NCBI GenBank assembly: GCA_026392465.1
Contig: JAPLCA010000026.1
Coordinates: 124,001 to 188,000, forward strand
Direction: 5' to 3'
Source: Propionibacteriales bacterium
GTDB lineage: Bacteria > Actinomycetota > Actinomycetes > Propionibacteriales > Nocardioidaceae
Length of the DNA stretch: 64,000 nucleotides
In this document: piece after piece, positions 24,155 to 59,460 of the stretch
How positions within the stretch are numbered: the stretch's first letter is position 1
Layout: the number at the start of each line of letters is the position of its first letter
The notes under the pieces: generated by a model
The model's input: the letters and a program-made list of their open reading frames with translations, nothing else
Database searches by the model: none
What the model was told of the DNA's origin: nothing
Program-made: the position numbers and the translations under genes

Positions 24155-24192
24155 GTCGGCGTCGGGCCCTCGTTCGTCGGCTGCGGGGTCGT

Positions 24193-24448
24193 GACCTTGC
24201 TGGTGCGCAGCCTGCAATCGTCGTGACCTTGCTGGTGCGTTGCCTGCGGTGGTCGTGACCTTGCTGGTGCGTCGCCTGCGGTCGTCGTGACCTTGCTGGT
24301 GCGCAGCCTGTGGTCGTCGTGACCTTGCTGGTGCGTCGCCTGCGGTCGTCGTGACCTTGCTGGTGCGCTGCCTGTGGTGGTCGTGACCTTGCTGGTGCGC
24401 TGCCTGCGGTGGTCGTGACCTTGCTGGTGCGCTGCCTCGGCTTTCGCT
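24193..24448. repeat. Tandem array of eight 32-bp units (copy 1, left)
   Basis: Units start at 24193, 24225, 24257, 24289, 24321, 24353, 24385 and 24417, an exact 32-bp period. Every unit begins with the invariant 15-mer GACCTTGCTGGTGCG; the other 17 positions vary, and units 3 and 5 are identical. There are no spacers, so it is not a CRISPR array. Confidence 0.92.
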
Positions 24449-24929
24449 GTGTCTGGTCTCCGAAAGGGCCTCGACCGGGCGGCTGGCGGGCGCGCTGGGC
24501 TGGGTTCTCGGGCTGTGGCTCGCGTGTGACGCAAAGATTCTGCATTTGTGCGTGACTGGCCCAAGATTCTGCTTTTGCGCGTGCCGGCGGTGGATCTGCC
24601 ACCTTCTGAGCGCTCTTCAGGTGGCAGATCCACCGACGAGGGGGCCAGACGTGTGAAGGATTCTTCCTTCTCGTGGACCGTTCCACGAAAAGGAAGAATC
24701 CTTCGTCCCCCCAACCCAAAGGGCACGCAAGATTCTGCATACGCGCGTTCGAGACTGAAGGCTTCTGCGTTCGCGACGGGATCCCGTAGCAAACGCAGCA
24801 TCCTTGACCCTCCCGCACACGAACGCAGATTCTTGCGTCCACCGCGGACCACAGCCCGAGACCCGAACCCGACCCCCGCCCAACCGCCCGGTCGAGGCCC
24901 TTTCGGAGGCCAGGCCCAGCGCCAGCCGA

Positions 24930-25019
24930 GGCAGCGCACCAGCACGACGAGACCACCTACGGCAGCGCACCAGCGAGACAAGACCTCCTACGGCAGCGCA
25001 CCAGCAGGACCAGACCCCC
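24930..25019. repeat. Tandem array of three 31-bp units (copy 1, right)
   Basis: GGCAGCGCACCAGC recurs at 24930, 24961 and 24992. Its reverse complement GCTGGTGCGCTGCC is the core of the left array, so the two arrays face each other. Confidence 0.88.
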
Positions 25020-26453
25020 CTACTGCCCCGACTCGTTCGGGTCGCGCCAGGTGCGTTCGAAGGGCAGGCGCCAGGCGCGGGGGGCGATGAGCTGGTGGAC
25101 AGCGTTGGGGCCCCAGGTGCCGACGGGGTAGGGGCGGACGGGAGGCGGGTCGTCGAGGAGGGGCTGGGAGACCTCCCAGAGCCGTTCGATGCCCTCAGCG
25201 GTCGTGAAGAGCGTCCGCTCCCCCTTCATCGCGTCGAGGATGAGCCGCTCGTAGGCCTCCAGCACCTCTCCGGCGCGTGCCGTGTCCTGCATCGCGAACT
25301 GCATCGAGAGCTTGTCGAGCCGCAGGCCGGGGCCGGGGCGCTTGCCGTAGAACGACAGCGACAGGCGGGAGGAGTCGGCGAGGTCGAAGGTGAGGTGGTC
25401 CGGTCCCGACAGCCCCACGCCCGACCCGGCCGGGAACATCGACTTCGGCGGCTCCCGGAAGGCGATGGAGATGATCCGCGCCCCCTGGGCCATCTGCTTC
25501 CCGGTGCGCAGGTAGAACGGCACGCCCGCCCAGCGCCAGTTGTCGATCTGCGCACGCAGCGCCACGAACGTCTCCGTCTCGGAGTCGTGCGAGACGCCCG
25601 GCTCCTCGCGGTAGCCCTGGTACTGGCCGCGCACGACGTCGGAGGGCCGCAACGGCAGCATCGAGCGGAAGACCTTGTTCTTCTCCTCGCTGATCGAGCT
25701 GGAGTCCAGCGACGTGGGCGGCTCCATCGCCATGAACGCGAGGATCTGGAACAGGTGGGTCACCACCATGTCCTTGAACGCGCCCGTGCCCTCGTAGAAG
25801 CCAGCCCGCCCCGACACCGACAGCGTCTCCGGCACGTCGATCTGCACGTGGTCGATGAACGTGCGGTTCCAGATCGGCTCGAACAGCCCGTTCGCGAACC
25901 GGAACGCCAGGATGTTGAGCGCGGCCTCCTTGCCGAGGAAGTGGTCGATGCGGAAGATCTGGTCCTCGTCGAACACCTCGTGGATGCGGGCGTTCAGCGC
26001 GCGGGCGCTCTCGAGGTCGGTGCCGAACGGCTTCTCCATGATGATGCGCGACCGCTCGACCAGTCCCGCCTCGTCGAGGGTGCGGACGACGTCGACCGCG
26101 GCCTTGGGCGGCACGCTCAGGTAGTGCAGCCGGCGCGGCGCACCGCCCAGCTCCTCCTCCAGTCGACCCGCCACCTCCGCGAGCCGCGCGGGCCCGTCGG
26201 CGACGTTCACGTAGTGCAGCTTGGGCGCGAAGTCGTCCCACTCCTCCTGCGGCACCGGCCGCCCGAACTCGCGGCACGCCTCCTGCGCGAAACGCCGGAA
26301 CCCGTCGTCGTCGAGGTCGTCCATCGAGACGGCCACGATGCGCGAGTCCGCCACCAGCCTCGAGCGCAGCAGGTGCAGGATGCCGGGCAGCAGCTTGCGG
26401 CGGGCCAGGTCCCCCGTCGCGCCGAAGAGCACGATCAGGTGCGGGTCGCTCAT
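25020..26453 (-). CDS. zwf: Glucose-6-phosphate dehydrogenase
   Basis: NADP-dependent first step of the oxidative pentose phosphate pathway. 477 residues. The nucleotide loop LFGATGDLARRKLLP is at residues 9-23, the substrate/active-site motif RIDHFLGKE near residue 170, and EKPFGTDLESA before it. It departs from the commonest actinomycete form (GKEAALNILAFRFANG) and is not next to opcA, tal or gnd, so it may be a paralogue of the main zwf. TAGTCT lies exactly 6 nt before the ATG, indicating a leaderless mRNA. The stop codon abuts composite repeat copy 1. Confidence 0.93.
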   Translation of the reverse strand: MSDPHLIVLFGATGDLARRKLLPGILHLLRSRLVADSRIVAVSMDDLDDDGFRRFAQEACREFGRPVPQEEWDDFAPKLHYVNVADGPARLAEVAGRLEEELGGAPRRLHYLSVPPKAAVDVVRTLDEAGLVERSRIIMEKPFGTDLESARALNARIHEVFDEDQIFRIDHFLGKEAALNILAFRFANGLFEPIWNRTFIDHVQIDVPETLSVSGRAGFYEGTGAFKDMVVTHLFQILAFMAMEPPTSLDSSSISEEKNKVFRSMLPLRPSDVVRGQYQGYREEPGVSHDSETETFVALRAQIDNWRWAGVPFYLRTGKQMAQGARIISIAFREPPKSMFPAGSGVGLSGPDHLTFDLADSSRLSLSFYGKRPGPGLRLDKLSMQFAMQDTARAGEVLEAYERLILDAMKGERTLFTTAEGIERLWEVSQPLLDDPPPVRPYPVGTWGPNAVHQLIAPRAWRLPFERTWRDPNESGQ

Positions 26454-26459
26454 GGCCCG

Positions 26460-26465
26460 AGACTA
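26460..26465 (-). promoter_or_regulatory. -10 box for leaderless zwf mRNA
   Basis: TAGTCT on the minus strand followed by 6 nt and the zwf ATG at 26453. Confidence 0.5.
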
Positions 26466-26508
26466 GACCTGTCGCGTTGCGCCCAGGTGAACGTCGGCAC
26501 CGCGCAGG

Positions 26509-28227
26509 TCAGGTCGGCGGGCGACGACCGGCCGCGGTCTCGGCGACGTCGAGCCGGCCGAGGACCGTGTCGAGCACGCGCGAGTCGTAGCGTCCCTCGG
26601 ACCGCAGCTCGAGGAGGGCCTCGCGCTGGTCCTCGATCACGGCGCGACGCAGCAGGCCGAAGTCGCGCAGGCGTCGGTCGCGCTCCGGTCCGTCCTCCCC
26701 CGCCCACTCCCACTCCGCGGCGGGCGTGCGGCGTCGGCGCACCTGCTCGACCGCCGTCGGGTCCAGGCGACGGCCGTCGAGCCCGTCCTGCGCCACCTCG
26801 GTGCAGCGCGCGTCGGCCACCTCCCCGAGCGCGTCGAGCAGGGCCCGTACCTGGGCGCGACGCTGCTCGGTCCGGTCCGACTCGGCGCCCAGCCGGCGCA
26901 CCACCCACGAGAGCGTGCCGCCCTGCACGAGCAGGGAGAGTCCCGCGACGCAGAAGGCGGCGAGCACGAGCAGGCTGCGCTGGGCCGTCTCCGGCGGCAG
27001 GGTCTGCGCGGCGGCCAGGGTGATGACGCCGCGCATGCCGGCCCACACGAGCACGATCCCGTCGCGTCTGCCGAGCCGCTGCTCCTCGTAGAAGACCAGG
27101 TCGGCCTCGCGGCGGGCGACCGCCTGCAGCGCCCGTTCGCGCCGACGCTGCGACAGCTGCTGCGCCTGGTCCGAGGTGAGGTACTCGCGGAACGTCGCCA
27201 GGCGCGGCCGGTGTCGTCCGGCGGCCTGGCGACCGCGGCGCAGCTCGAGGAGCAGCAGGGCCACCCACACGGCCCGTCCCACGAGGAGGACGCCGAGCGC
27301 GATGGCCGTGACGACAGCGAGCTGCGACCACGGCTGGCCCGACGCGTCGAAGTCGGCCAGGAGGGGGCGCAGCTCCAGACCCATGACGAGGAAGACGGCG
27401 CCCTCGAGCAGGAAGGCGATGGTGCGCCAGTTGACCTCCTCGGCGATGCGGTCCTCCGCCCGCAGCTCGACGAGTCCGCGGGTGCCGGTGACCAGGCCGG
27501 CCACGACGACGGCGACGAGCCCCGACCCGCCGAGGTGCTCGGCGGGGGCGTAGGCGAGGAACGGCACGACGAACGAGATCGACGTCGCGACCGTGGCGTC
27601 CTCCACGAGGGACCGGACGAAGAGGCTGACCGCGGCCACGAGCAGACCGACGACGACGGCCACCAGCACCGCCTGCACGAAGTCGAGGCCGACGTGCCAG
27701 AGCGACGCTGACGCGCCCGAGGTGGCGACGGCGGTGCGCAGCAGGACCAGCGCGGTGGCGTCGTTGAGCATGCTCTCGCCGTCGAGGACAGTGACGAGCC
27801 GCGGAGCGACGCCGGTACGCCGGACGATGGACGTGGCGACGGCGTCGGTGGGGCTGACGATCGCGCCGAGCGCGAACGCCTCCGCGAACCCGATGCCCGG
27901 CACGACGAGCGGCAGCAGCCAGCCGAGGGTCAGCGCCGAGACGAGGACCAGCACGACCGACAGGCCGCTGATCGCCTTGAAGTCGCGGCGGAAGTCGAGC
28001 GCGGGCATGTTGACCGACGCCGCGTACAGCAGCGGCGGGAGCACCCCGGCGAGGATCGCCTCGGGCGGCACCTCGAACGCCGGCACCCCGGGCAGGAAGG
28101 AGATGCCGACACCGGCGACGACGAGCAGCAACGGTGCCGCGACCCCGATCCGTCCCGCGACCGACGTGACCGTGACGATGACGAGGACACCGGCGACGGC
28201 GAGGAGCAGGAGGTCCATGCGGACCAT
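26509..28227 (-). CDS. CPA1-family cation/proton antiporter (NhaP-like)
   Basis: A 572-residue membrane protein with about 12 helices in residues 1-420 and a cytosolic C-terminal tail of 150 residues, as in Na+/H+ exchangers. Transport-site motifs are GAIVSPTDAVATS and GESMLNDATALVL, with GMRGVITLAAAQTLP in a later helix. The tail carries charged helices that could sense pH or bind a ligand. The ATG at 28227 (MVRMDLLLL) or the ATG at 28218 could be the start. It probably moves Na+ or K+ against protons; the ion cannot be decided. It is divergent from a lipoprotein gene. Confidence 0.9.
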   Translation of the reverse strand: MVRMDLLLLAVAGVLVIVTVTSVAGRIGVAAPLLLVVAGVGISFLPGVPAFEVPPEAILAGVLPPLLYAASVNMPALDFRRDFKAISGLSVVLVLVSALTLGWLLPLVVPGIGFAEAFALGAIVSPTDAVATSIVRRTGVAPRLVTVLDGESMLNDATALVLLRTAVATSGASASLWHVGLDFVQAVLVAVVVGLLVAAVSLFVRSLVEDATVATSISFVVPFLAYAPAEHLGGSGLVAVVVAGLVTGTRGLVELRAEDRIAEEVNWRTIAFLLEGAVFLVMGLELRPLLADFDASGQPWSQLAVVTAIALGVLLVGRAVWVALLLLELRRGRQAAGRHRPRLATFREYLTSDQAQQLSQRRRERALQAVARREADLVFYEEQRLGRRDGIVLVWAGMRGVITLAAAQTLPPETAQRSLLVLAAFCVAGLSLLVQGGTLSWVVRRLGAESDRTEQRRAQVRALLDALGEVADARCTEVAQDGLDGRRLDPTAVEQVRRRRTPAAEWEWAGEDGPERDRRLRDFGLLRRAVIEDQREALLELRSEGRYDSRVLDTVLGRLDVAETAAGRRPPT

Positions 28228-28284
28228 CGTGACACCGGCGACCCATGGTGCTCGGTCCCCGGGACCCGGCCCACCGCGAGGCCC

Positions 28285-28290
28285 TACGAT
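28285..28290 (+). promoter_or_regulatory. -10 box for leaderless lipoprotein mRNA
   Basis: TACGAT followed by exactly 6 nt and the ATG at 28297. Confidence 0.5.
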
Positions 28291-28296
28291 CCGACC

Positions 28297-28713
28297 ATGC
28301 GCCGCCTTCCCGTCCTGCTCGTCCTCGGCCTCCTGCTCGGAGCCTGCGCGCAGGACCCCGAGCCGCCGCGCTCGTTCCCCATCATCGGCGAGCGCGTGTG
28401 GGCGCGGTTCGACGACAGCGGCTCGGTCAGCGAGACCGCCACGGCCAACGAGCCGGTCCGCGTCGTGAGCGTGCAGCTCTCCTGCACGGGCGACAGCGGC
28501 GACCAGGAGCTGACGGTCACGACGCCGCTCGGCACCGCTGGACAACCGTGCCCCAACACCTCGCGCGAAGGATCGATCAGCCAGAGCCTGGCCGACGGGA
28601 CGGAGCCCTATCCCGCAGGCGACCTCCCCGTTCGGGTGGACGCCCCCGACGGAGTTCGCTGGTCCGTCGCCGTGACCGTGAACGCGTCGGACGCCGCGGG
28701 CATCGTCCAGTGA
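28297..28713 (+). CDS. Small lipoprotein of unknown function
   Basis: A 138-residue protein with a signal peptide (MRRLPVLLVLGLLLGAC) ending in the lipobox LLGAC, so Cys17 should be lipid-modified and the protein anchored outside the membrane. The mature part is polar, with two further cysteines (SCTGDSG, PCPNTS) that may form a disulfide. No known domain is recognised. It is convergent with the response regulator gene, with only 9 nt between the stop codons. Confidence 0.8.
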   Translation: MRRLPVLLVLGLLLGACAQDPEPPRSFPIIGERVWARFDDSGSVSETATANEPVRVVSVQLSCTGDSGDQELTVTTPLGTAGQPCPNTSREGSISQSLADGTEPYPAGDLPVRVDAPDGVRWSVAVTVNASDAAGIVQ

Positions 28714-28722
28714 CCTCGCTCC

Positions 28723-29370
28723 TCAGATCAGCCGACGGTCGCTCGCCCACTTCGTGAGCTCGTGCCGGCTCGAGAGCTGCAGCTTGCGCAGCACGCTCGA
28801 CACATGGGTCTCGACGGTCTTGACGGAGATGAACAGCTCCTTCGCGACCTCCTTGTAGGCGTAGCCGCGGGCGATCAGGCGCATCACCTCGCGCTCCCGC
28901 TCGGTGAGGCGGTCGAGGTCCTCGTCGACCTGCGCGACCTCGATGGTCCCGGCGAACGCGTCGAGCACGAAGCCGGCGAGCCGCGGGCTGAACACGGCGT
29001 CGCCGGAGGCCACCCGGTGCAGCGCGTCGACGAGCTCGGCACCAGAGATCGTCTTCGTCACGTACCCCCGGGCGCCGGCCCGGATGACGCCGATGACGTC
29101 CTCCGCGGCATCGCTGACCGACAGGGCCAGGAACCGCACCTCGGGTGCCTGCGGCAGCACGCGGCGGATCACCTCGGCCCCGCCGCCGCCCGGCATGTGC
29201 ACGTCGAGCAGGACGACGTCGGGACGCGTGGCCAGGACGGCCGGCACGGCCGTGTCGACGTCCTCGGCCTCGCCCACCACGACGACGCCCGGGTCCTTCT
29301 GGAGCTCGGCGCGCACCCCGGTGCGGAACATGGCGTGGTCGTCGACCACCAGGACGTGCAGGGGGTTCAT
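28723..29370 (-). CDS. LuxR/NarL-family response regulator
   Basis: A 215-residue two-component regulator. The receiver domain has acidic residues in VVDDHAMF and the phospho-acceptor Asp in VVLLDVHMPGGG. The C-terminal LuxR HTH is LTEREREVMRLIARGYAYKE to KTVETHVSSVLRKL. The ATG overlaps the kinase stop codon (ATGA), so kinase and regulator are translated together. Likely targets are the divergent pspC/LiaF-type genes 1.4 kb away, by analogy with LiaSR-type systems. Confidence 0.95.
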   Translation of the reverse strand: MNPLHVLVVDDHAMFRTGVRAELQKDPGVVVVGEAEDVDTAVPAVLATRPDVVLLDVHMPGGGGAEVIRRVLPQAPEVRFLALSVSDAAEDVIGVIRAGARGYVTKTISGAELVDALHRVASGDAVFSPRLAGFVLDAFAGTIEVAQVDEDLDRLTEREREVMRLIARGYAYKEVAKELFISVKTVETHVSSVLRKLQLSSRHELTKWASDRRLI

Positions 29371-30614
29371 CGGGGCTCCTCGGGACTCGCGGCGGGCTGG
29401 GACAGGGGCATGGTGAGCGCGACCTCGGTGCCGTCCGGGCCGCTGCGGACGCGGGCGGTCCCGCCGTGGTTCTCGACCCGGCCGACGATCGAGCCGCGCA
29501 CGCCCATCCGGTCGTCGGCGATCGCGTCGGGGTCGAAGCCCGTACCGCGGTCGCGGACGAAGACCTCGACGACGCCCTGGCCGACCTCGGCGTAGACGTC
29601 GACGCGGTCGACCCCGGCGTGCTTGGCCGCGTTGACGACCGCCTCGCGCGCGGCACGGACGACCGCGACCAGGTCGGCGTCGAGCGGCGTGTCCCCGACG
29701 ACGACCAGCTCGACGGCGATCCGGTGCGTCTCCTCCACGTCGGCGCGCACGTCGCGCAGCGCGGCCGCCCACGAGTCGCCGGGCAGCTCCTCCTCGCCGT
29801 ACAGCCACGAGCGCAGCTCGCGCTCCTGACGCCGCGCGAGGGTGGCGACCGCGGCCGGGTCGGACGCGTTCTTCTGCAGGAGCGCCAGCGTCTGCAGCAC
29901 GGAGTCGTGCAGGTGGGCGGCGACGTCGGCACGCTCCTGCGAGCGGATCCTCTCGCGCCGCTCGCTGCCCAGGTCGGTGACGAGCGAGACGACCCACGGT
30001 CCGAGCAGCAGGAGCAGCCCGACGACGGCGACGAGCAGCGCCAGGCCGAGGTCGCGCACGGCGGAGAGGCCGCGCTCCTGCGTCAGGAGGTAGAGGACGC
30101 CGAACGCGACGAGGCCGAGACCCGCGGCCACCCGCAGCACGAACCCGCCTCCGGACGTCCGGGTGAACCAGGACTGCCACGCGGCGTCGTCGAGCTGACG
30201 CCACACGACGGCGATCCCGCCCACGACCACCAGCAGCGGAAGGAGCATCGACCCGCCCGGGCGGGCCCCGCCCTGCACGAGGAGCAGCACGCCGACGCCG
30301 ACCGCCAGCACCGCGAGGGTCTGGACGACCTCGACCCCGCCGGGGCGGCCGGGGACACGCAGACCACGACGCGTGGCGGCCTCGAGGCCCGGGGACAGGT
30401 CCGGCCCGCGCAGCGGCAGGAACCGCCAGAGGAGCAGGTAGGCCAGCACGCCTGCGCCGTTGAACCACGTGGCCACGACGAAGCCGACCCGCACCCACAG
30501 CACCGGCACGCCGAGGTGCTCGGCGACGCCTGCCGCGACGCCACCGCCCAGCCGGTGCTCGGCGGGCCGGTAGGCGCGCCGCACGGGACGGGTCGGCGCG
30601 TCGGTGGGAGTCAC
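29367..30614 (-). CDS. PspC-domain sensor histidine kinase
   Basis: A 415-residue kinase. Residues about 12-65 form an N-terminal PspC domain (RAYRPAEHRLGGGVAAGVAE then a hydrophobic helix); five further hydrophobic segments follow to residue 220. The HisKA_3 phosphorylation box is VAAHLHDSVLQTLALLQ and the ATPase has REAVVNAAKHAG and RDRGTGFD. The GTG at 30614 starts right before the PspC domain; longer upstream reading lacks support. It pairs with the downstream LuxR regulator and lies divergent to another PspC gene, a common actinomycete envelope-stress arrangement. Confidence 0.93.
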   Translation of the reverse strand: MTPTDAPTRPVRRAYRPAEHRLGGGVAAGVAEHLGVPVLWVRVGFVVATWFNGAGVLAYLLLWRFLPLRGPDLSPGLEAATRRGLRVPGRPGGVEVVQTLAVLAVGVGVLLLVQGGARPGGSMLLPLLVVVGGIAVVWRQLDDAAWQSWFTRTSGGGFVLRVAAGLGLVAFGVLYLLTQERGLSAVRDLGLALLVAVVGLLLLLGPWVVSLVTDLGSERRERIRSQERADVAAHLHDSVLQTLALLQKNASDPAAVATLARRQERELRSWLYGEEELPGDSWAAALRDVRADVEETHRIAVELVVVGDTPLDADLVAVVRAAREAVVNAAKHAGVDRVDVYAEVGQGVVEVFVRDRGTGFDPDAIADDRMGVRGSIVGRVENHGGTARVRSGPDGTEVALTMPLSQPAASPEEPR

Positions 30615-30757
30615 CTCGGCATCGTCACACGCGCGCGCGAGCCGCCGCCACCAGGTGGACCACCCGGGCGACCCCGAGCCGTCGTCGCCACGCACCAGGG
30701 TCGGACCAGGGTCGCGCCGGATGGTCCCGCCCCCTCACCCGCGCCGAGGATGGAGCC

Positions 30758-32026
30758 ATGAGCACCACACCACCTCCCGGCTCCCCCACCGACCAGACCG
30801 GGTCCGACGAGACCCGCACCGCTGCCACCCCGCGGGCGGGCGCCCGCGCCTTCGACGACCTCCGCCGCAGCGACGACGACCGACTCGTGGCGGGCGTGTG
30901 CGGCGGCGTGGCGCGTCGCCTCGACGTCGACCCGGTCCTCGTCCGCGTGCTCACCGTCGTCCTGTGCTTCGTCGGCCTGGCCGGGGTGATCCTCTACGTC
31001 GCCGGCTGGCTGCTGCTGCCGGAGGACGACGAGCCCAGCAGCCTCGTCGCCCGCTGGTTCGACCTCGGCGCGTCGCAGACGCAGGTACGCGACATCGGCC
31101 TCGTCGGGGCCGGTGTGCTCGCCGTGGTCGCGATCGTCGGCGACGGCGGCTGGGGGTGGGGCGGTGGCGCGGTCTGGCTGGTCGCCGTGGTCGGGCTGCC
31201 GGTGGCGTTCGTGATCTGGCTCGCCCGCCGCAGCGGCAGGCCGTCGACAGCCGCGGACGCGGCGGCTGCCGACCCCGCGTCGGGACCGAGCGGGACGAGC
31301 ACGCCCTCCGCCGGGCCGGGCTGGCCAGGCGGACCCGAGGACACCGCGGTGCTCGAGCGACCCGCTCCCACCCGCGTCGACGACGTCCCGCCTCCTCCCC
31401 CGGCGTCGAGACGCCCCGCGCAGCCGAAGCCGCCGCGCCGCCCGCGCGAGCCCTACAGCTGGGTGCCCACCCTGCTCGGCCTCTCGCTCACCGCCATCGC
31501 CCTGGCCGTCCTGCGGCTCACCGCGGACCCGGCCTGGCCCGTGTACGTGGCCCTCGCCCTCGCCGTGCTCGGCGCGGTGCTCGTGCTGAGCACCTTCACC
31601 CGTGGCGGCGGGCCGCTGGTCGTCGTCGGCCTCGCGCTCCTGCCACTGCTCGCGGTCGCGTCGGTGCTGCCGACGCTGCGCACCGGTGAGCAGGTGGTGC
31701 GCCCGACGACGACGGCGGAGGTCCGGTCCACCTACACGCACGGTGTCGGCAGCTTCGAGCTCGACCTGGGCGCCGTCACCGACCCCGAGGACCTCGTCGG
31801 TCGCACGATCCGCGTGGACACGGGGATCGGCGAGACCCGCGTCTGGGTGCCCGAGGGCCTCCCGGTCGTGGCCAAGGCGTCGGTCGACGCCGGCGACCTC
31901 GAGGTGCTCGACACGCGCCGCAGCGGCGTGGGCCAGGAGGTCGGGCCGACCGGTGGGTCGTTCCCCGACGCCCTGACCATCGTGGTCGACCAGGGCCTCG
32001 GCCGCGTGGTGGTGGACGCCCGGTGA
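30758..32026 (+). CDS. PspC-domain protein with LiaF-like C-terminus
   Basis: A 422-residue membrane protein. A polar N-terminus is followed by a PspC domain (DRLVAGVCGGVARRLDVDP then a hydrophobic helix) at about residues 45-95. A Pro-rich cytosolic linker (residues 160-230) precedes a second group of helices. The C-terminal 100 residues (TYTHGVGSFELDLGAVTD onward) look like the beta-rich LiaF/cell-wall-active antibiotic response domain. It is probably an envelope-stress sensor or negative regulator acting with the divergent kinase. The next gene overlaps its stop (GTGA). Confidence 0.88.
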   Translation: MSTTPPPGSPTDQTGSDETRTAATPRAGARAFDDLRRSDDDRLVAGVCGGVARRLDVDPVLVRVLTVVLCFVGLAGVILYVAGWLLLPEDDEPSSLVARWFDLGASQTQVRDIGLVGAGVLAVVAIVGDGGWGWGGGAVWLVAVVGLPVAFVIWLARRSGRPSTAADAAAADPASGPSGTSTPSAGPGWPGGPEDTAVLERPAPTRVDDVPPPPPASRRPAQPKPPRRPREPYSWVPTLLGLSLTAIALAVLRLTADPAWPVYVALALAVLGAVLVLSTFTRGGGPLVVVGLALLPLLAVASVLPTLRTGEQVVRPTTTAEVRSTYTHGVGSFELDLGAVTDPEDLVGRTIRVDTGIGETRVWVPEGLPVVAKASVDAGDLEVLDTRRSGVGQEVGPTGGSFPDALTIVVDQGLGRVVVDAR

Positions 32027-40729: not shown

Positions 40730-40780
40730 GGTTCCGGATGATGCCAGACGCCTCCCTCTGCCGCCGGGTGGGCGGGGCTT

Positions 40781-40925
40781 GCTGGTGCGCTGGCGGCGCT
40801 CGTCGTGGCCCTGCTGGTGCGCTGCCGTCGGGGGTCTGGGGTTGCTGGCGCGCTGCCGCAGGGGATCTGGGGTTGCTGGTGCGCTGCCTGCGGTTGCTCT
40901 GGCCTTGCTGGTGCGCTGCCTCGGC
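40781..40925. repeat. Tandem array, five units (copy 2, left)
   Basis: GCTGGTGCGCTG-type cores start at 40781, 40813, 40844, 40875 and 40907, a 31/32-bp period. The units are more diverged than in copy 1 (one reads GCTGGCGCGCTGCC). Confidence 0.85.
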
Positions 40926-41414
40926 TGGCGCTGGGTGTGGTCTCCGAAAGGGCCTCGACCGGGCGGCTGGCAACGGTGCTGAGCTGGGTTCTCGGGCTGC
41001 GGCTCACGTGGGACCCAAGATTCTGCATTTGTGCGTGGCTGGCCCAAGATTCTGCGATTGCGCGTGGCGGCGGTGGATCCGCCACCTTCTGGACGCTCTT
41101 CAGGTGGCGGATCCACCGCTGCCCGGGGGCGGGCGCGGAAAGATTCTTCCTTCTCGTGGAACGGTCCACGAGAAGGAAGAATCCTTCGTCACCCCAACGC
41201 AAACGGCACCCACGATTCTGCATTCACGTGATTGAGGCCGAACGATTCTGCGTTCACCACGGGATCCCGTAGCCAACGCAGAAGCCTTCGAGTCCCAACG
41301 CACGAACGCAGAATCCTGCGTCCCACGCGAGCCACAGCCCGAGACCCGAAGCCGACCCCCGCCCAGCCGCCCGGTCGAGGCCCTTTCGGAGACCACCCCC
41401 AGCGTGAGCCGAGA

Positions 41415-41575
41415 CAGCGCACCAGCAACCACAGACCCCCTGAGGCAGCGCACCAGCAAGACGAGACCCCCTGAGGCAGCGCACCAGCAAGACGAGACCC
41501 CCTGAGGCAGCGCACCAGCAGGACGAGACCCCCTGAGGCAGCGCACCAGCAGGACGAGACCCCCGACGGCAGCAC
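41415..41575. repeat. Tandem array of 31-bp units (copy 2, right)
   Basis: CAGCGCACCAGCA recurs at 41415, 41446, 41477, 41508 and 41539, exactly 31 bp apart, with a degenerate sixth unit at 41570. The units are separated by near-identical GAGACCCCCTGAGG, so this side has been homogenised more recently than the left. Confidence 0.9.
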
Positions 41576-41641
41576 CCCACCGAGCCCAGACCCGCGAGCA
41601 GCGCGCCCGCAGGACAGAAGCCCGCAGCCCCACGCCCACCC

Positions 41642-50749: not shown

Positions 50750-50765
50750 GCGGGTGCGGTGGCTG

Positions 50766-50870
50766 GGCTCTCTCCTGGGGGTGGGGGCGCGCTGGGGTGG
50801 CTTCTCTCTCGGCCTGCGGCTGCGCTGGGGTGGCTTCTCGTTCGGGTGGGGCTGCGCTGGCGCGGCGTTG
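50766..50870. repeat. Tandem array, three diverged units (copy 3, left)
   Basis: GGCTTCTC-type blocks (the first reads GGCTCTCTC) start at 50766, 50799 and 50832, about 33 bp apart, mixed with GGGTGGGGCTGCGCTGG. They are diverged but resemble the copy 4 unit. Confidence 0.65.
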
Positions 50871-51317
50871 ACTCGTCCTGCGCTCCGAAAGAGCTTCGAC
50901 CGGGCGGCTGGGCGGGGTCGGCTTCGGGTCTCGGGCTGTGGCCCGCGTGGGACGCAAGAATCTGCGTTCGTGCGCTGGGACTCGAAGTCTTCTGCGTTTG
51001 CTACGGGATCCCGTCGTGAACGCAGAAGCGTTCCGATCTCAACGCGCGAATGCAGAATCTTGGGTGCCCTTTGGGTTGGGGGGACGAAGGATTCTTCTTT
51101 CTCGTGGACCGTTCCACGAGAAAGAAGAATCCTTCACGCCCTCGCCCCCTCAGCGGTGGATCTGCCACCTGAACAGCGCCCAGAAGGTGGCAGATCCACC
51201 GCCGGACCGCACGAACGCAGAATCTTGCGTCCACAGCGCGGGCCACAGCCCGAGAACCCAGCCCACCGGCCCGCCAGCCGCCCGGTCGAGGCCCTTTCGG
51301 AGACCACCTCCACGAGA

Positions 51318-51450
51318 AGCCGCGCCAGCGCACCCCCACCCGAGCAGCAAGCCACACCAACGCACCCCACCCGACCACGAAACCGCGCCAGCGCAGCCCC
51401 ACCCGAGCAGGAAGCCACGCCCGCGCAGCCGCAGGCCGAGGAAAAACCAC
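51318..51450. repeat. Tandem array, five units (copy 3, right)
   Basis: AGCCGCGCCAGCGCA-like units start at 51318, 51350, 51381, 51413 and 51445, a 31/32-bp period. They are reverse complements of the copy 3 and 4 left-array units. Confidence 0.75.
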
Positions 51451-51519
51451 CCCGACGCACCCCACCCGACCCCAAGCCCGCCCAGCCCGCTCCGGACAGG
51501 CCGAGCCGGGCTCAGGGCG

Positions 51520-52977
51520 TCAGAGGATCGCGCCCGGCGTGTAGGTGGCGGCGGCCGGGTCGACGGCGACGAGCTCGTCGACCTGGGCGACGACGGCGGC
51601 GACCTGGGCGGTCGCGGCGCCGGTGAACTCCAGGGGTGCGGCGACGAGGGAGGCGAGGTCGGCCTCGGTGAGGGCGAGTCGCTCGTCGGCCGCGAGGCGT
51701 GCGAACAGGTCGTTGCCGGCCGACCCTTGCTCGCGCATCTCCAGGGCGACGGCCACCGCGTGCTCCTTGATCGCCTCGTGCGCGGCCTCACGGCCCACGC
51801 CGGCGCGCACCGCGGCCATCAGCACCTTGGTCGTCGCCAGGAACGGCAGGTAGCGGTCGAGCTCACGCTGGACGACCGCCGGGAACACGCCGAACTCGTC
51901 GAGGACGGTCAGGAACGTCTCGAACAGGCCGTCCGCGGCGTAGAACGCATCGGGGAGGGCCACACGGCGCACGACCGAGCACGACACGTCGCCCTCGTTC
52001 CACTGGTCGCCGGCCAGCTCGCCCACCATCGACACGTAGCCGCGGACGACGACGGCCAGGCCGTTGACCCGCTCGCACGAGCGCGTGTTCATCTTGTGCG
52101 GCATCGCGCTCGAGCCGACCTGGCCGGGCTTGAAGCCCTCGGTGACCAGCTCGTTGCCGGCCATGAGCCGGATCGTCGTGGCCAGGTTCGACGGGGCGGC
52201 CACCAGCTGCGCGAGCGACGTGACCACGTCGTAGTCGAGCGAGCGCGGGTAGACCTGCCCGACGCTGGTCAGCACCCGCTCGAAGCCGAGGTGCTCGGCG
52301 ACACGCCGCTCCAGGTCGGCGAGCTTGGCGAAGCCGTCTGCCGCCCCCGGCCCGGCACCCCCGCCGGGTGCCCCGCCCAGCAGGTCGAGCTGGTCCTGCG
52401 CGGTGCCGACGGGACCCTTGATGCCGCGCAGCGGGTAGCGGGCGAGGAGGTCGTCGAGCCGGCCGATGCCGGTGAGGAGCTCGTCGGCGACGGTCGCGAA
52501 GCGCTTGCCGAGCGTCGTCGCCTGCGCCGCCACGTTGTGGCTGCGACCCGCCATGACGAGCTCGGCGTGCTCGGCGGCCAGCCGGGCGAGCCTCGCCAGC
52601 GCCGCGACGGCCCTCGAGCGCAGCACCTGAAGCGACGCCCGCACCTGCAGCTGCTCCACGTTCTCCGTCAGGTCGCGCGACGTCATGCCCTTGTGGATGT
52701 GCTCGCTGCCGGCGAGCGCCGCGAACTCCTCGATCCGTGCCTTGACGTCGTGCCGGGTCACGCGCTCGCGGTCGGCGATCGACGCGAGGTCGACCTGGTC
52801 GACGACGGCCTCGTAGGCCTCGATCACGCCGTCGGGCGTCTCGACCCCCAGGTCGCGCTGGGCCTTGAGCACGGCGATCCACAGCTGCCGCTCGAGCACG
52901 ATCTTGTGCTCGGGCGACCAGATGCGCGCGATCTCGGGCGAGGCGTAGCGGTGGGCCAGAACGTTGGGCGTCGTCAC
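51520..52977 (-). CDS. purB: Adenylosuccinate lyase with an in-frame repeat insertion
   Basis: Splits SAICAR and adenylosuccinate, two steps of purine synthesis. 485 residues. The N-terminus TTPNVLAHRYASPEIARIWS, the H-loop HIHKGMTSRDLTEN, SVGQVYPRSLDYDV and the fumarase-family signature SSAMPHKMNTRSCERVNG are all present. Residues about 203-216, reading [11 protein letters not shown], appear to be an extra loop made by a 36-bp repeat (52333-52368) also found intergenically at 4803. From memory, actinomycete PurB proteins have a shorter loop there. The GTG at 52977 gives the family-typical start; ATGs at 52986 and 52989 are alternatives. Confidence 0.95.
   Translation of the reverse strand: MTTPNVLAHRYASPEIARIWSPEHKIVLERQLWIAVLKAQRDLGVETPDGVIEAYEAVVDQVDLASIADRERVTRHDVKARIEEFAALAGSEHIHKGMTSRDLTENVEQLQVRASLQVLRSRAVAALARLARLAAEHAELVMAGRSHNVAAQATTLGKRFATVADELLTGIGRLDDLLARYPLRGIKGPVGTAQDQLDLLGGAPGGGAGPGAADGFAKLADLERRVAEHLGFERVLTSVGQVYPRSLDYDVVTSLAQLVAAPSNLATTIRLMAGNELVTEGFKPGQVGSSAMPHKMNTRSCERVNGLAVVVRGYVSMVGELAGDQWNEGDVSCSVVRRVALPDAFYAADGLFETFLTVLDEFGVFPAVVQRELDRYLPFLATTKVLMAAVRAGVGREAAHEAIKEHAVAVALEMREQGSAGNDLFARLAADERLALTEADLASLVAAPLEFTGAATAQVAAVVAQVDELVAVDPAAATYTPGAIL
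52333..52368. repeat. 36-bp G+C-rich repeat inside purB
   Basis: Reverse complement matches 34 of 36 bases of the repeat at 4803-4838. It sits in frame in purB and encodes a Gly/Ala/Pro-rich loop. Confidence 0.85.
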
Positions 52978-53025
52978 GCCGCACATCATCCCACCCGCCC
53001 CGCGGACGACGGACGGCCGTCCGCG

Positions 53026-53775
53026 TCAGACGGCGACGTAGTGGTCGACGTCCTCGAGGAGGATCCGCGTGCCGGTGTCGCCGTCCCACGACGCCCGGAG
53101 CCCGTGGCGCCGGAGCACCGGGAGCACCTCGTCCGACACCAGCGCGCCGACGAGCCGTGCGTAGGTGGCGTCCTTCTCGGCGTCGTCGAGCGCCTCCCAC
53201 TCCTCGCGCGGCAGGTGCTCGGCCAGGAAGACGCCGTAGCCGAGGTACGTCGTGCGGGTCTCCAGCAGCGTCTCGGTGTCCTGCTGGTGGAAGTAGACGT
53301 ACCCGCGCCAGCGTCGGGAGTCGTCGCGCTCGTCGCCGATCTCGGCCGTCGCGCAGCTGCCGCAGCAGGTGAAGTCGGGACGGGCCAGCACGCCGATCGC
53401 CTCGAGGTCGTCGAAGGCGGCGAGCAGCGGCGGGCGGGCGACGTCGGCCGACCAGGCCGCCTGCTGCTCGCGTCGGGCGCGGACGAGGTGCCGGAAGGCG
53501 TCGACGGCCTGCTGCTCGGTGACGCCGAGCTCGGCGATCTCGTCCTCGCGCAGCTCGAGGAGGTCCTCCACCTCGGTCCGGCCCAGGAGCACGTCCTCCC
53601 ACAGCAGGTCGCGCAGCGCCTCCTCGACGTCGGCAGGCAGGCGCAGCGACGACGGCAGGACCAGTCCGGCCGGCTGGTCGTTCAGCCCTCCCGCGGGCCG
53701 GGTCGAGGCGGCCTGCTGCTGGCGGCGCCCGCGCAGCCGCGACCAGAACCCTCGGCGCTGCTCCGACCCGGACAT
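53026..53775 (-). CDS. DUF6891 protein
   Basis: A 249-residue protein of unknown function. After a basic N-terminus there is an acidic helical part and a conserved core with FTCCGSCATAEIGDE, a likely metal-binding cysteine cluster, and WRGYVYFHQQDTE. It ends with a beta-rich LRASWDGDTGTRILLEDV region. The purD stop overlaps its ATG by one base (TGATG), so the two are translationally linked. No link to purine synthesis is visible from its sequence. A 14-bp palindrome (53010-53023) just after the stop could terminate transcription. Confidence 0.82.
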   Translation of the reverse strand: MSGSEQRRGFWSRLRGRRQQQAASTRPAGGLNDQPAGLVLPSSLRLPADVEEALRDLLWEDVLLGRTEVEDLLELREDEIAELGVTEQQAVDAFRHLVRARREQQAAWSADVARPPLLAAFDDLEAIGVLARPDFTCCGSCATAEIGDERDDSRRWRGYVYFHQQDTETLLETRTTYLGYGVFLAEHLPREEWEALDDAEKDATYARLVGALVSDEVLPVLRRHGLRASWDGDTGTRILLEDVDHYVAV

Positions 53776-55034
53776 CAGACCTCGATCTCCCCGCGCTGGG
53801 CGGCCAGGGCGATGTCCGCGCGGAACTGCGCACCGTCGAAGGAGATCGCGTCGACCCCGGCGTAGGCCCGGTCGCGAGCGTGCTCGAGGTCCTCGCCGAC
53901 CGCGGTGACCGCCAGCACCCGCCCGCCGCTGGTCACGAGTCGGCCGTCGGCGTCCAACCCGGTCCCCGCGTGGATGACGTCGACGCCCTCGATCGTGTTC
54001 GCCGCGCCGACTCCGAGGATCACGTCGCCGGACCGCGACGACGCCGGGTAGCCGGCCGACGACATGACCACCGTGACGGCCGTGCCGTCGTGCCAGGCCG
54101 GCAGCCCGACCGCGTCGAGGGTGCCGGTCGCGGCGCCGTGCAGCAGCGACGCGAGCGGGGTGCGCAGCAGGGCCAGGATCGCCTGGGTCTCGGGGTCGCC
54201 GAAGCGGGCGTTGAACTCGACGACGCGCACCCCCCGCGACGTCAGGGCGAGCCCGGCGTAGAGGAGACCCTGGAACGGCGTGCCGCGACGTGCCATCTCC
54301 TGCACGGTGGGCACGAGCACACGGCGGGTCACGTCGGCGACCAGGTCGTCGGGCGCCCACGTGAGGGGCGTGTAGGCGCCCATGCCTCCGGTGTCGGGTC
54401 CGGCGTCGCCGTCGAGGGCGCGCTTGAAGTCCTGGGCGGGCTGCAGCGGCAGGACGGTCTCGCCGTCGGTGATGGCGAAGAGGGACACCTCGGGGCCGTC
54501 GAGGAACTCCTCGATGACCACGCGGTCGCAGCCGGCCGCGTGGTCGAGGGCCTCCTGACGGTCCTCGGTGACGACGACTCCTTTGCCGGCGGCCAGCGCG
54601 TCGTCCTTGACGACGTACGGCGGACCGAAGGCGTCGAGCGCGGCGGCGACCTCCTCGGCGGTCTCGCACACGTGTGCCATGGCGGTGGGCACCTCGGCGG
54701 CCGCCATGACCTGCTTCGCGAAGGCCTTCGAGCCCTCCAGCTGCGCGGCGGCGCGACTGGGCCCGAAGCAGGCGATCCCGGCGTCGCGGACGGCGTCGGC
54801 GACGCCGGCGACGAGCGGCGCCTCCGGGCCGACGACGACGAGGTCGGCGCCGATCGACGTGGCGAGCGCGGCGACGGCGTCACCGTCGAGCGGGTCGACG
54901 TCGTGCAGGGTCGCGACGTCGGCGATGCCCGGGTTGCCGGGTGCCGCGTGCACCTCGGTGACCTGCGGGTCGCGGGACAGGGCCAGGGCCAGGGCGTGCT
55001 CGCGTCCGCCGGTACCGATCACCAGAGTCTTCAC
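53775..55034 (-). CDS. purD: Phosphoribosylamine--glycine ligase
   Basis: ATP-grasp ligase making GAR, the second step of purine synthesis. 419 residues. The N-terminal VIGTGGREHALALAL, the ATP-grasp segment VVKDDALAAGKGVVV, EEFLDGPEVSLFAI and the metal site VVEFNARFGDPETQAIL are intact. The GTG at 55034 matches the family start; TAGGGT lies 8 nt upstream. It heads a purD-DUF6891 operon divergent from a GNAT gene. Confidence 0.95.
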   Translation of the reverse strand: MKTLVIGTGGREHALALALSRDPQVTEVHAAPGNPGIADVATLHDVDPLDGDAVAALATSIGADLVVVGPEAPLVAGVADAVRDAGIACFGPSRAAAQLEGSKAFAKQVMAAAEVPTAMAHVCETAEEVAAALDAFGPPYVVKDDALAAGKGVVVTEDRQEALDHAAGCDRVVIEEFLDGPEVSLFAITDGETVLPLQPAQDFKRALDGDAGPDTGGMGAYTPLTWAPDDLVADVTRRVLVPTVQEMARRGTPFQGLLYAGLALTSRGVRVVEFNARFGDPETQAILALLRTPLASLLHGAATGTLDAVGLPAWHDGTAVTVVMSSAGYPASSRSGDVILGVGAANTIEGVDVIHAGTGLDADGRLVTSGGRVLAVTAVGEDLEHARDRAYAGVDAISFDGAQFRADIALAAQRGEIEV

Positions 55035-55186
55035 GCTGCCCGACCCTATCGCCCCGGGTCGGCTCCGGATCGGTCGACGAGGAAGCTCGACCGCACTCCG
55101 ACGCGACCAGGCCGCGGCAGCGCCCGACACCATGCCGCCGTCGACGTCGGGACGGGGCCGCAGACGGCGGTGGGAGACTGGGCCAC

Positions 55187-55747
55187 GTGTACTCCGCCGA
55201 TGAGGGCCCGACGCCGTGGCTCGGCGGCGAGGTCCGCGCGGAGGGCCTCGTGCTGCGGTCCTGGGATCTGGGCGACGTGCCCACGATGGTCCGCCTGTTC
55301 GACACACCCGACATCGATCGGTGGACGCCGTTGGCGCACCCCTTCGACGAGGACGCCGCCACCGCCTACGTCCGCGCTGCCTGGGAGGGACGGTCGACCG
55401 GCACGCTCCAGCTGGCGGTCACGTATGACGGCGGAGAACCCCTCGGCGAGGTGCTGCTGTTCGGGACGGAAGAGGACGGGACCTGTGAGCTCGCCTACGC
55501 AGTGGGATGCGAGCACCGCGGCCAGGGCCTGGCGGTGCGCTCCGTCCGGGCCGCGCTCCGCGTAGCCCACGACGCTGGCCACGTCCGCGCGAGGCTCCGC
55601 ATCGCCGTCGGGAACCGGCGGAGCGAGCACGTCGCGCTGTGCGCCGGTTTCGCGCTCACTGGTGAGCCGGTGCAGCACCGGCGGCGCAAGGGGCGGACGC
55701 TGAGCCTGCGCACCTGGCGGCGCGCGGACCTGCAGACCCGAGACTGA
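55187..55747 (+). CDS. GNAT-family acetyltransferase (RimJ/RimL-like)
   Basis: A 186-residue acetyltransferase with the RimJ/RimL type N-terminal region (EGLVLRSWDLGDVPTMVRLF), EPLGEVLLFG, and the acetyl-CoA loop GCEHRGQGLAVRSVRAAL followed by RLRIAVGNRRSEHVALCAGF. The substrate may be a protein N-terminus or a small amine; it is unknown. GTG start at 55187. It is convergent with purA, with a 9-nt gap. Confidence 0.87.
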   Translation: MYSADEGPTPWLGGEVRAEGLVLRSWDLGDVPTMVRLFDTPDIDRWTPLAHPFDEDAATAYVRAAWEGRSTGTLQLAVTYDGGEPLGEVLLFGTEEDGTCELAYAVGCEHRGQGLAVRSVRAALRVAHDAGHVRARLRIAVGNRRSEHVALCAGFALTGEPVQHRRRKGRTLSLRTWRRADLQTRD

Positions 55748-55756
55748 CCGCCCGGC

Positions 55757-57190
<1,434 letters not shown>

Positions 57191-57252
57191 CTAGGCTCGC
57201 AGGGGCACCGTCGTCGACGGTGGTTCTCGGGGCCGCACGCAGAGGGAGCACC

Positions 57253-58167
57253 ATGAGCGACAGCAGGCCCTGGGTGGCCGTGGTGAACGCGCAGGCGGGC
57301 AGCAGCGACGACCCGCGCCTCGAGGAGGCGCTCGACGTGCTGCGCGCGCACACGTCGCTGGAGGTGCGGCACACCGAGGACCGCGACGACCTGCAGGACG
57401 CGGTGGCCGCGGCCCGTGGCGGCGTGGTGGTGGCGGTCGGCGGCGACGGCAGCATCCACGCCGTCGTCACGGCCGTCGACGACCTCGACCTGTTCGACGA
57501 CGTCGAGGTGGCGATCGTGCCGCTCGGCACCGGCAACGACTTCGTACGCACGCTCGGGCTCAGTGACGACCCGGTCGAGGCTGCACGGCAGGCCGTCGAC
57601 TGCGCGCCCCGTCCCGCCGACGTGATCCGCGACGGTCAGGACCGGCTGGTCGTCAACGCCGTCCACGTGGGCCTGGGCGCCGAGGCGAACGTGAAGGCGA
57701 CGCCGTGGAAGAAGGCGTTCGGCCCGGTCGGGTACGCCATCGGCGCGGCGATCACCGGAGTGGTCGGCAAGGGCTTCCACGCGACGGTGCACGTCGACGG
57801 CGAACGCATCGACTCGCCTCGTCGACTCATCCAGGTGGCCGTCGGCAACGGTCGCTACGTCGGCGGCGGCGCCCCGCTGCTCCCCGCGGCGGACCCGTTC
57901 GACGGCAGCCTCGACGTCGCGGTCGTGTGGGCGCACGCCCGGTGGAAGCGTCTCGGGTACGCGTACCGCCTGCGTCGCGGCCGCCACCCGATGCGTGACG
58001 ACGTCGTCTACCTCAAGGGTCGCGAGGTCGTGGTGCAGGGCGAGGCGTTGCAGGCCAACCTCGACGGCGACCTCTGCGATGCGAGCCCCCGGCACCAGTG
58101 GGTGGTCGAGCCGGGACGGCTGCGACTGCGTGCCCCCGCCGACGCGCCCCCGCCGCTGGAGGACTGA
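57253..58167 (+). CDS. Diacylglycerol kinase-family lipid kinase
   Basis: A 304-residue DagK/YegS-like kinase that probably phosphorylates diacylglycerol or a related lipid. The catalytic GGDG motif is VAVGGDGSIHAVV, followed by PLGTGNDFVRTLG and the C-terminal beta-sandwich domain (VAVGNGRYVGGG, the DGSLDVAVVW region). The ATG at 57253 has AGAGGGA about 5 nt upstream. It is divergent from purA and convergent with the DUF3151 gene. Confidence 0.92.
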   Translation: MSDSRPWVAVVNAQAGSSDDPRLEEALDVLRAHTSLEVRHTEDRDDLQDAVAAARGGVVVAVGGDGSIHAVVTAVDDLDLFDDVEVAIVPLGTGNDFVRTLGLSDDPVEAARQAVDCAPRPADVIRDGQDRLVVNAVHVGLGAEANVKATPWKKAFGPVGYAIGAAITGVVGKGFHATVHVDGERIDSPRRLIQVAVGNGRYVGGGAPLLPAADPFDGSLDVAVVWAHARWKRLGYAYRLRRGRHPMRDDVVYLKGREVVVQGEALQANLDGDLCDASPRHQWVVEPGRLRLRAPADAPPPLED

Positions 58168-58195
58168 GCGGTGCCGGTGATCTGAGCGGAGCCGC

Positions 58196-58597
58196 TCAGA
58201 CGAGCTGCGCGTACGCCTCGGGGCTCGACTCGTGCAGGAACTCGCGGCAGCGGTGCGCCTCGGCGTCGTCGCCGAGCCGCTCGGACCCGGTGGCGAGCGC
58301 CGCGAGCGAACGCAGGAAGCCCTGGTTCGGCTCGTGCGACCACGGCACCGGGCCGAAGCCCTTCCAGCCGTTGCGGCGCAACGCGTCGAGCGAGCGGTGG
58401 TAGGCCGTCCGCGCGAACGCGTAGCCCTCCAGGTCGTCACCCGCGTCGAGCGCCTCCTGCGCCAGGAGCGCCCACGCGAGCACCGAGTCGGGGTGCTCCG
58501 AGGCCACGGTCCGCGCCGACGTGCCCGACGCCAGATCCTGCGCGCCCGGGTCCTCGGGAAGGAACGTCTCCGGCGGCTCACCCAGCAAGTTCGTCAT
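58196..58597 (-). CDS. DUF3151 protein
   Basis: A 133-residue actinomycete-specific protein of unknown function, with conserved YAFARTAYHRSLDALRRNGW and VPWSHEPNQGFLRSL segments that suggest an all-helical fold. Its acidic N-terminus contains ETFLPEDP. TAGGGT lies 7 nt before the ATG, so its mRNA may be leaderless. It commonly neighbours purA or fba in related genomes. Composite repeat copy 4 lies just upstream. Confidence 0.85.
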   Translation of the reverse strand: MTNLLGEPPETFLPEDPGAQDLASGTSARTVASEHPDSVLAWALLAQEALDAGDDLEGYAFARTAYHRSLDALRRNGWKGFGPVPWSHEPNQGFLRSLAALATGSERLGDDAEAHRCREFLHESSPEAYAQLV

Positions 58598-58656
58598 GCT
58601 CTGCACCCTACGCACCGGGCCGGCGGAGGGGCTGGCGTGGGCTGGTGCGCTGGCGT

Positions 58657-58830
58657 GGCTTGTCTCTCGGGTGGGGGTGCGCTGGTGTGGCTCCGTGGTC
58701 GGGTGGGGGTGCGCTGGTGCGGCTCCGTGGTCGGGTGGGGCTGCGTGGGTGCGGCTCCGTGGTCGGGTGGGGCTGCGTGGGTGCGGCTCCGTGGTCGGGT
58801 GGGGGTGCGCTGCTGCGGCTTCTCGTGGAG
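58657..58830. repeat. Tandem array of 32-bp units (copy 4, left)
   Basis: Units start at 58657, 58689, 58721, 58753, 58785 and 58817, exactly 32 bp apart. The core of the inner four is GGCTCCGTGGTCGGGTGGG followed by a GCGCTGGTGC-like block. Confidence 0.9.
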
Positions 58831-59305
58831 GTGGTCTCCGAAAGGGCCTCGACCGGGCGGCTGGGCGCGAGGTGGGCTGGGTTCTCGGGCTGTGGCTCCC
58901 GCTGTGGGACGCAAGATTCTTCCTTCGTGCGCGGTTGGCCCAAGATGCTGCGTTTGCGCGGTCCGGCGGTGGATCTGCCACCTTCCGAGCGCTCTACAGG
59001 TGGCAGATCCACCGACGAGGAGGCGAGGGGTGTGAAGGATTCTTCCTTCTCGTGGACCGTTCCACGAGAAGGAAGAATCCTTCGTCTCCCCAACGCCAAG
59101 GGCACCCAAGATGCTGCATTCGCGCGAGTGAGACCGAACGCTTCTGCGTTCACGACGGGATCCCGTAGCAAACGCAGCATCCTTCGAATCCCAGCGCACG
59201 AACGCAGAATCCTGCGTCCCACAGCGCGGGCCGCAGCCCGAGACCCCAAGCCGACCCCCGCCCAGCCGCCCGGTCGAGGCCCTTTCGGAGCGCAGGACGA
59301 GTCGA

Positions 59306-59437
59306 AGCCGCACCGACGCACCCCCACCCGAAAGCAAAGCCACACCAGCGCAGCCCCACCCGACCACGGAGCCGCACCCACGCAGCCCCACCCGAGAGAG
59401 AAGCCACGCCAGCGCAGCCCCACCCAAGAGAGAAGCC
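59306..59437. repeat. Tandem array of 32-bp units (copy 4, right)
   Basis: AGCCRCRCC-type starts at 59306, 59338, 59370, 59402 and 59434, exactly 32 bp apart, carry CGCAGCCCCACCCGA, the reverse complement of the left-array core. Confidence 0.88.
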
Positions 59438-59460
59438 CCGGACGCGGTCCCCGCCCCGCC

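Follow-up and report, generated by a model that had tools for sequence, protein, structure and literature searches.

A clade-specific family of large mosaic palindromes in Aeromicrobium, with inherited sites and cores probably overwritten by exchange between copies

The 64,000-nucleotide stretch analysed here (the window; bases 124001-188000 of contig C38) lies in the 3.69 Mb draft of an Aeromicrobium genome and carries four composite palindromes. These belong to a real, rigidly built, clade-specific, non-coding repeat family, represented by about 50 copies in this genome. The best explanation of the whole, to which we assign a probability of about 0.6, is that these are large non-coding interspersed mosaic palindromes of one clade, whose sites are inherited and whose cores would be overwritten by conversion. 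This apparent overwriting of orthologous copies by copies from within the same genome is new beyond the initial annotation of the window, which had described the four elements. The own genome is denoted G000, the sister species that also carry the element are G005, G019 and G043, and G011 and G016 are near relatives without the composite.

Architecture and range of the family

The four elements occupy the four longest inter-gene gaps of the window. Genes were called, with no annotation, by a codon-based caller made for the analysis, which overlooked one or more genes, including that of a formyltransferase at 13572-14258. The initial annotation had placed four composite elements in these gaps, and the inverted repeats, arrays and hairpins were located there. 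Its view that they fill the large gene-free regions holds for the four largest gaps; the family also extends beyond convergent gaps. The layout that it drew for all copies stands in forward orientation for three of them, and the third copy (50750-51480) is inverted, reading C-B-A. The features are as follows.

24181..25022, + strand: element 1, forward A-B-C, between convergent genes for a GNAT acetyltransferase and glucose-6-phosphate dehydrogenase
24181..24437, + strand: element 1, left array of 32-bp units
24459..24483, + strand: element 1, left arm of the inverted repeat, 25-nt core
24588..24635: element 1, hairpin A
24659..24700: element 1, hairpin B, a 42-mer
24761..24802: element 1, hairpin C, set in the 42-nt frame of hairpin B
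24883..24907, - strand: element 1, right arm of the inverted repeat
24930..25016, - strand: element 1, right array of 31-bp units, inverted
40775..41615, + strand: element 2, forward, flanked by codirectional genes
40943..41390, + strand: element 2, core between the inverted repeats (A 41071-41118, B 41142-41183, C 41244-41285)
50750..51480, - strand: element 3, inverted C-B-A, between codirectional genes for SAICAR synthetase and adenylosuccinate lyase
50884..51301, - strand: element 3, core (C 50988-51029, B 51090-51131, A 51154-51201)
58640..59440, + strand: element 4, forward, between codirectional genes for a DUF3151 protein and a FAD-linked oxidase
58837..59289, + strand: element 4, core (A 58967-59014, B 59038-59079, C 59140-59181)

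From the outside of an element inwards, an array of 31-32 bp units is followed by the inverted repeat and by a second, weaker one; next come the 29-bp half-units, of which there are one or two, and then hairpins A, B and C. The arrays, with a period of 31-33 bp in the window elements, sit outside the inverted repeat, whose core is TCCGAAAGGGCCTCGACCGGGCGGC; its 25-nt cores start, left/right, at 24459/24883, 40943/41366, 50884/51277 and 58837/59265. The centre of hairpin C is ACGGGATCCCGT, starting at 24776, 41259, 51003 and 59155. Hairpins B and C have a common 42-nt frame, plainest in G019, and the hairpin arms reach 18-27 bp in many copies. The G+C content is 65-69% in the elements and 50% in hairpin B of element 4, below the 72.7% of the window, in agreement with the earlier description of hairpin B as A+T-rich relative to the genome. 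A tRNA of unknown type reported by ARAGORN at 24846-24937, inside the element 1 palindrome, was taken as false.

Copies in G000 occur in both orientations and were found to follow one shared plan, as had been proposed. Around 44 own copies, all 182 occurrences of the three array words tested point inward (97 forward on the left, 85 reverse on the right, none opposite); in the window, 29 such words lie within the elements and four outside. Full cores (418-461 bp) were obtained for 38 of the 44 own copies in the fetched stretches. The constant hairpin spacing noted before was confirmed: the distance from B to C is identical in all four window elements and, over the 38 full copies, is 77 nt in 36 and 76 nt in two, a variation of 1 nt; hairpins A and B are 23 nt apart in 29 copies and 22 nt apart in nine. 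These values are measured by end points of our own, and the 60 and 17-19 nt given previously rest on other end points.

The strictly inward orientation and the 31-32 bp period of the arrays, along with the conserved inverted repeat, would suit a hub for a nucleoid or recombination protein, in which units of about three helical turns form phased sites for a clade-specific protein. Such a hub appears distinctly improbable, given that there is no candidate protein (no search for one was made), that presence and absence at orthologous sites differ between G000 and G019, and that the distance from the origin, among the matches listed, is biased in G005 (Kolmogorov-Smirnov p=0.003) and not in G019 (p=0.35).

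With the element 4 core as query against G000, long matches were obtained in all of the best 40 of 128 candidates. The inverted-repeat pattern, with at most three mismatches, gave 42 forward and 46 reverse matches in this genome, the reversed control gave none, and hairpin B was found at 52 sites. Several inverted-repeat matches lie at contig ends, indicating that copies break the assembly, and the true copy number is therefore uncertain. Among the 49 Aeromicrobium genomes scanned on both strands, a 20-nt repeat core was matched 49/51 times in G000, 50/48 in G005, 39/48 in G043 and 39/38 in G019; 44 of the genomes had zero matches and one had a single match, equal to its control of one. The search for many copies that the initial annotation had recommended was thus answered both genome-wide and in three sister species. 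Across the four carriers no part is as constant as the inverted repeat, and the copies of the sister species are diverged in sequence.

A survey of the order (391 genomes, two candidates scored in each) found some match in 31 genomes and long matches only in the same four species; many of the short matches outside them are to hairpin A. Hairpin B is confined to the four carriers among 293 genomes of the family, and each match listed is 42 nt long, although the pattern permitted 30-50. Collections of phages, plasmids and viral contigs gave no match to the element, the search beyond these having covered the Propionibacteriales, and a phage or plasmid origin was rejected on this basis. A known RNA family was likewise rejected, with no Rfam match at gathering score in the whole window. 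The earlier statement that no named element has this architecture agrees with this result and with the literature, in which no paper on the element was found, most subscription papers being outside coverage.

Inherited sites and exchange between copies

G005 is collinear with the window (about 90-96% identity in longer blocks) and carries an element at each of the four sites, with altered cores: hairpins A and B are missing at the element 3 site, and the element 4 site has a different A-type cassette. For 15 of the 20 element loci of G005, one flank or both could be matched to an element locus in the fetched stretches of G000, and the other five may lie at unfetched contig ends. The element 1 site is also filled in G043. 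G019, collinear at about 78-91% in longer blocks, is without elements 1 and 2, having 45 and 27 nt in their place, the 45-nt site containing a small hairpin; at the element 3 site it has more than 3 kb of other sequence. At the element 4 site of G019 (C1:3303180-3305000, L133), conserved inverted repeats surround wholly different hairpins, which suggests cassette exchange. The reverse case was also observed, in that G019 sites A and C are filled, G000 has only 16 and 55 nt there, and G005 aligns through with no element. Each of G000 and G019 thus has empty sites where the other is filled, and those in G019 are what had been anticipated for a mobile or functional family. At two further G019 loci (C1:3268770-3269800 and 3287400-3288320; L131, L132), the left array and inverted repeat are tandemly doubled.

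The empty sites, the constancy of the inverted repeat in four species and the differing cores inside the same inverted repeats at the G019 element 4 site might be taken to indicate a non-autonomous transposon like a miniature inverted-repeat transposable element (MITE), with the inverted repeat as its ends and a DDE or other transposase encoded elsewhere. We nevertheless consider this unlikely. With few exceptions, the copies have mirrored arrays on the outer side of the inverted repeat, so that it is not terminal as in a MITE, and a G+C content of 65-69% is at odds with the A+T-richness of MITEs. Phages, plasmids and viral contigs have no match, and no target duplication is visible by eye, the flanks being too diverged for a firm test.

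In the 15 orthologous G000-G005 pairs, the flanks are 90.5-93.9% identical and the cores 56.3-87.5%. Some other G000 copy is nearer (87.8-91.2%) than the G005 orthologue in all 15. Because choosing the best of 37 copies favours paralogues, the median paralogue is the fair figure, and this is closer than the orthologue in 13 of the 15 pairs; in only one pair is the orthologue closer than every other G005 copy. Copies within a genome have a median identity of 82.5% (G000), 80.4% (G019) and 65.5% (G005); taken alone, G005, in which the modules vary more, would not look homogenised. Judging from these comparisons, orthologous copies appear to take over sequence from other loci of their own genome.

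Linkage disequilibrium between core positions was measured in three genomes. In G000 (78 two-state sites, 38 copies), the mean r2 was 0.286 at 1-5 bp, 0.133 at 15-30 bp and 0.028 at 60-120 bp, with a background from sample size of 0.027; linkage thus decays to background within about 60 bp. The decay persists when only pairs separated by 15 or more columns are used, and also in the 28 copies that remain after 10 with a different left arm are dropped. The r2 value was found to fall from 0.333 to about 0.085 in G019 (16 copies) and from 0.577 to 0.113 in G005 (12 copies), the decay running over shorter and longer distances. Permutation of positions gave a comparable decay in 0 of 500 cases in each of these genomes. 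Recurrent mutation alone would lower linkage equally at all distances, and the decay is read as short-tract conversion. We read the overall pattern as probable concerted evolution by short-tract conversion among copies dispersed over the chromosome, with only a putative role for RecA; the family would then behave, within a single chromosome, as a recombining population does. Conversion from arm to arm within one element was considered and rejected, the arms of an element being no more alike than those of other elements.

In the proposed mechanism, new copies would have arisen by copying into gaps at gene ends, through a route that uses no Y1/RAYT transposase. Settled copies would be inherited over the long term and their sequence overwritten patch by patch from other copies by homologous short-tract gene conversion, for which the constant arrays and inverted repeat may act as pairing anchors. 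Transposition versus gene conversion in dispersed bacterial palindromes is an old question, and gene conversion has reportedly been proposed for repetitive extragenic palindromes (REPs), as the title of a 1988 review, listed among the references of PMC8266576, has it. The related genomes compared here separate both processes through inherited sites, empty sites and apparently overwritten cores, and the decay of linkage is a direct quantitative sign of exchange among about forty places on one chromosome. Such exchange would affect the reading of synteny, typing schemes and genome assembly in such species.

Folding, gene context and possible role

The copies sit between genes, most often with at least one gene ending there. 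Of 44 copies in G000, 16 lie between convergent, 19 between codirectional and 6 between divergent genes (3 unresolved) with the gene caller described above, compared with 19, 61 and 33, respectively, of 113 other gaps of at least 20 nt (convergent excess, p=0.008). The convergent/codirectional/divergent counts are 9/8/4 in G005, 11/11/0 of 22 in G019 and 2/6/1 in G043. Hairpin A also occurs on its own:

11440..11487, no strand assigned: solo hairpin A in the window, between convergent TetR and GNAT genes; missing from the aligned G005 site
L033:1517-1562, L042, L047, L149 and L153 (G011): solo copies of hairpin A, lying 3-50 nt beyond a stop codon

Strict hairpin A was found in four of the 293 family genomes (G000 25, G005 6, G011 5 and G043 2). 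G011 has no inverted repeat, so its five copies are solo hairpins. In other genomes, seven of eight solo hairpins are downstream of a gene, and five, being all those of G011, are within 50 nt of a stop codon. A 3'-end role is likely for hairpin A on the basis of this placement. For the composite element such a role is possible; because its solo relative sits just after stop codons, the most likely host role would be that of passive bidirectional transcription barriers or 3'-end structures. The best clue to function is the terminator-like placement at gene ends, from which we infer this role.

Element 4, the sole element folded, gave an RNA folding energy of -659 kcal/mol, compared with -415 ± 9.6 kcal/mol for 20 shuffles, and its core also folds better than shuffles with DNA parameters. 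Compensatory change is less general. Hairpin B in G000 has 26 mismatched pairs versus 38.3 ± 2.2 (0 of 5000 shuffles), much of which is explained by one C/T swap. Covariation is weak in hairpin A (75 mismatched pairs versus 81.6, sd 3.5) and was not detected in hairpin C of G000 (288 versus 289). In G019, hairpin B was not significant (114 versus 125.1; 205 of 3000) and hairpin C had no covariation (63 versus 57.3); four copies in G005 and six in G043 were in a form usable for the stem test. A structured RNA, one of the roles first suggested, is at most a putative one; compensatory change is clear only in hairpin B of G000 and absent for hairpin C.

The strong folding of element 4, the convergent excess (with 11 convergent, 11 codirectional and no divergent sites among 22 in G019), the small hairpin in the empty element 1 site of G019 and the solo hairpin A beside stop codons would all be accounted for if the elements were host-selected bidirectional terminators or 3'-end stabilisers, with selection maintaining a large hairpin where genes end and homogenisation as a secondary effect. 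However, the same gene pairs lack an element in most relatives, 800 bp is far beyond the needs of termination, six of 44 own copies are between divergent genes, and the element 4 scan contains no T-tract terminator. Selection of this kind is accordingly viewed as rather doubtful.

The reading that we prefer, inherited palindromes with converted cores and perhaps a passive role at gene ends, has several observations weighing against it. The 38 G000 cores were picked by full-length similarity to element 4, with six partial copies and those at contig ends excluded, and such selection raises the similarity within G000. No donor enzyme for the element was found, and no target duplication was seen by eye at the G000/G019 junctions, where the flanks are too diverged for a firm test. 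The arms within one element match no better than arms between elements, so the large outer palindrome is not maintained as a unit, and compensatory change clearly supports a maintained structure for hairpin B of G000 only; the large palindrome is better seen as a product of the family's build than as a proven selected structure. With respect to the role, the divergent sites (depletion p=0.09) and the one of eight solo hairpins between divergent genes fit a pure terminator ill. In addition, no intrinsic terminator (G+C-rich stem plus T run) was found at 58300-59800, the scan covering element 4 only, and the terminator role put forward in the initial annotation stays putative.

Comparison with known repeats and the question of mobilisation

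The family resembles bacterial interspersed mosaic elements (BIMEs), REPs and REPINs in being intergenic, high-copy and mosaic, with short palindromes in inverted arrangement. BIMEs are described as inverted pairs of palindromic units, intergenic and mosaic (PMC8266576), and as an architectural class they are matched here by inverted mosaic palindromic units between genes in many copies. Unlike those repeats, the present elements are about 0.75-0.9 kb long, have a fixed nested plan with inward arrays, lack a Y1/RAYT gene and occur in four species only. Such BIME-like inverted, intergenic, mosaic units (PMC8266576) would also be expected of a REPIN/BIME spread by a REP-associated tyrosine (RAYT, Y1) transposase. 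Against this, PF01797 (Y1/RAYT/IS200 transposase) was found in none of 31 Aeromicrobium genomes, the four carriers included, with 5 of 14 controls positive; mobilisation by RAYT/IS200 was rejected for this reason and is highly improbable. The GTAG- and CGTC-tagged REPs are short palindromes in dimers, the CGTC type being without a dedicated transposase (PMC3733652). The likeness lies in short palindromic repeats, with stems of 5-13 bp in those REPs and arms of 18-27 bp in the present family.

The BOX elements of streptococci are modular composite repeats with a tandem-array part and stem-loop folding, intergenic and proposed to be parasitic (PMC3049150); composite modules, a tandem-array part, stem-loops and intergenic position recur here. 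The BOX plan is boxA-boxB(n)-boxC, whereas the present family is mirror-symmetric with arrays outside the inverted repeat, and it is set apart by this description and by the lack of an Rfam match. The Correia inverted repeat is given as 26 bp (PMC3049150). Correia, neisserial intergenic mosaic (NIME) and MITE-like elements are similar in that an inverted repeat of comparable length encloses their internal sequence, and differ in that here the inverted repeat is internal, the sequence is G+C-rich and no target duplication was identified. Overall, BIME and BOX elements are the nearest in kind, but the tests made place the family in neither group, BOX being judged by description. It works like a BIME/BOX-type mosaic repeat and lacks the transposase of the REP/RAYT system.

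SbcCD cuts hairpin DNA. SbcD was unmatched in 18 of the 49 Aeromicrobium genomes, comprising all four carriers and 14 of the 45 other genomes (Fisher p=0.014, kinship ignored); the closely related G011 and G016 belong to these 14. SbcC in the carriers gave short, weak matches (E about 3e-5), and no genome reaches the curated cut-off. That the absence of SbcCD permits these repeats is a guess; if the carriers really are without SbcCD, they would form a natural test of the survival of large palindromes. A tentative proposal along these lines is RAYT-independent mobile or homing palindromic DNA with clonal sites, in which the hairpin cassette would be swapped between mirrored anchors by short-tract conversion, perhaps via SbcCD loss.

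The protein adjoining element 2 has its nearest named relatives in Aeromicrobium sp. CnD17-E (99%) and sp. Root495 (73%). In G005, few elements lie in the quarter of the chromosome nearest dnaA (4 of 52 among the sites listed), and G019 shows no such bias.

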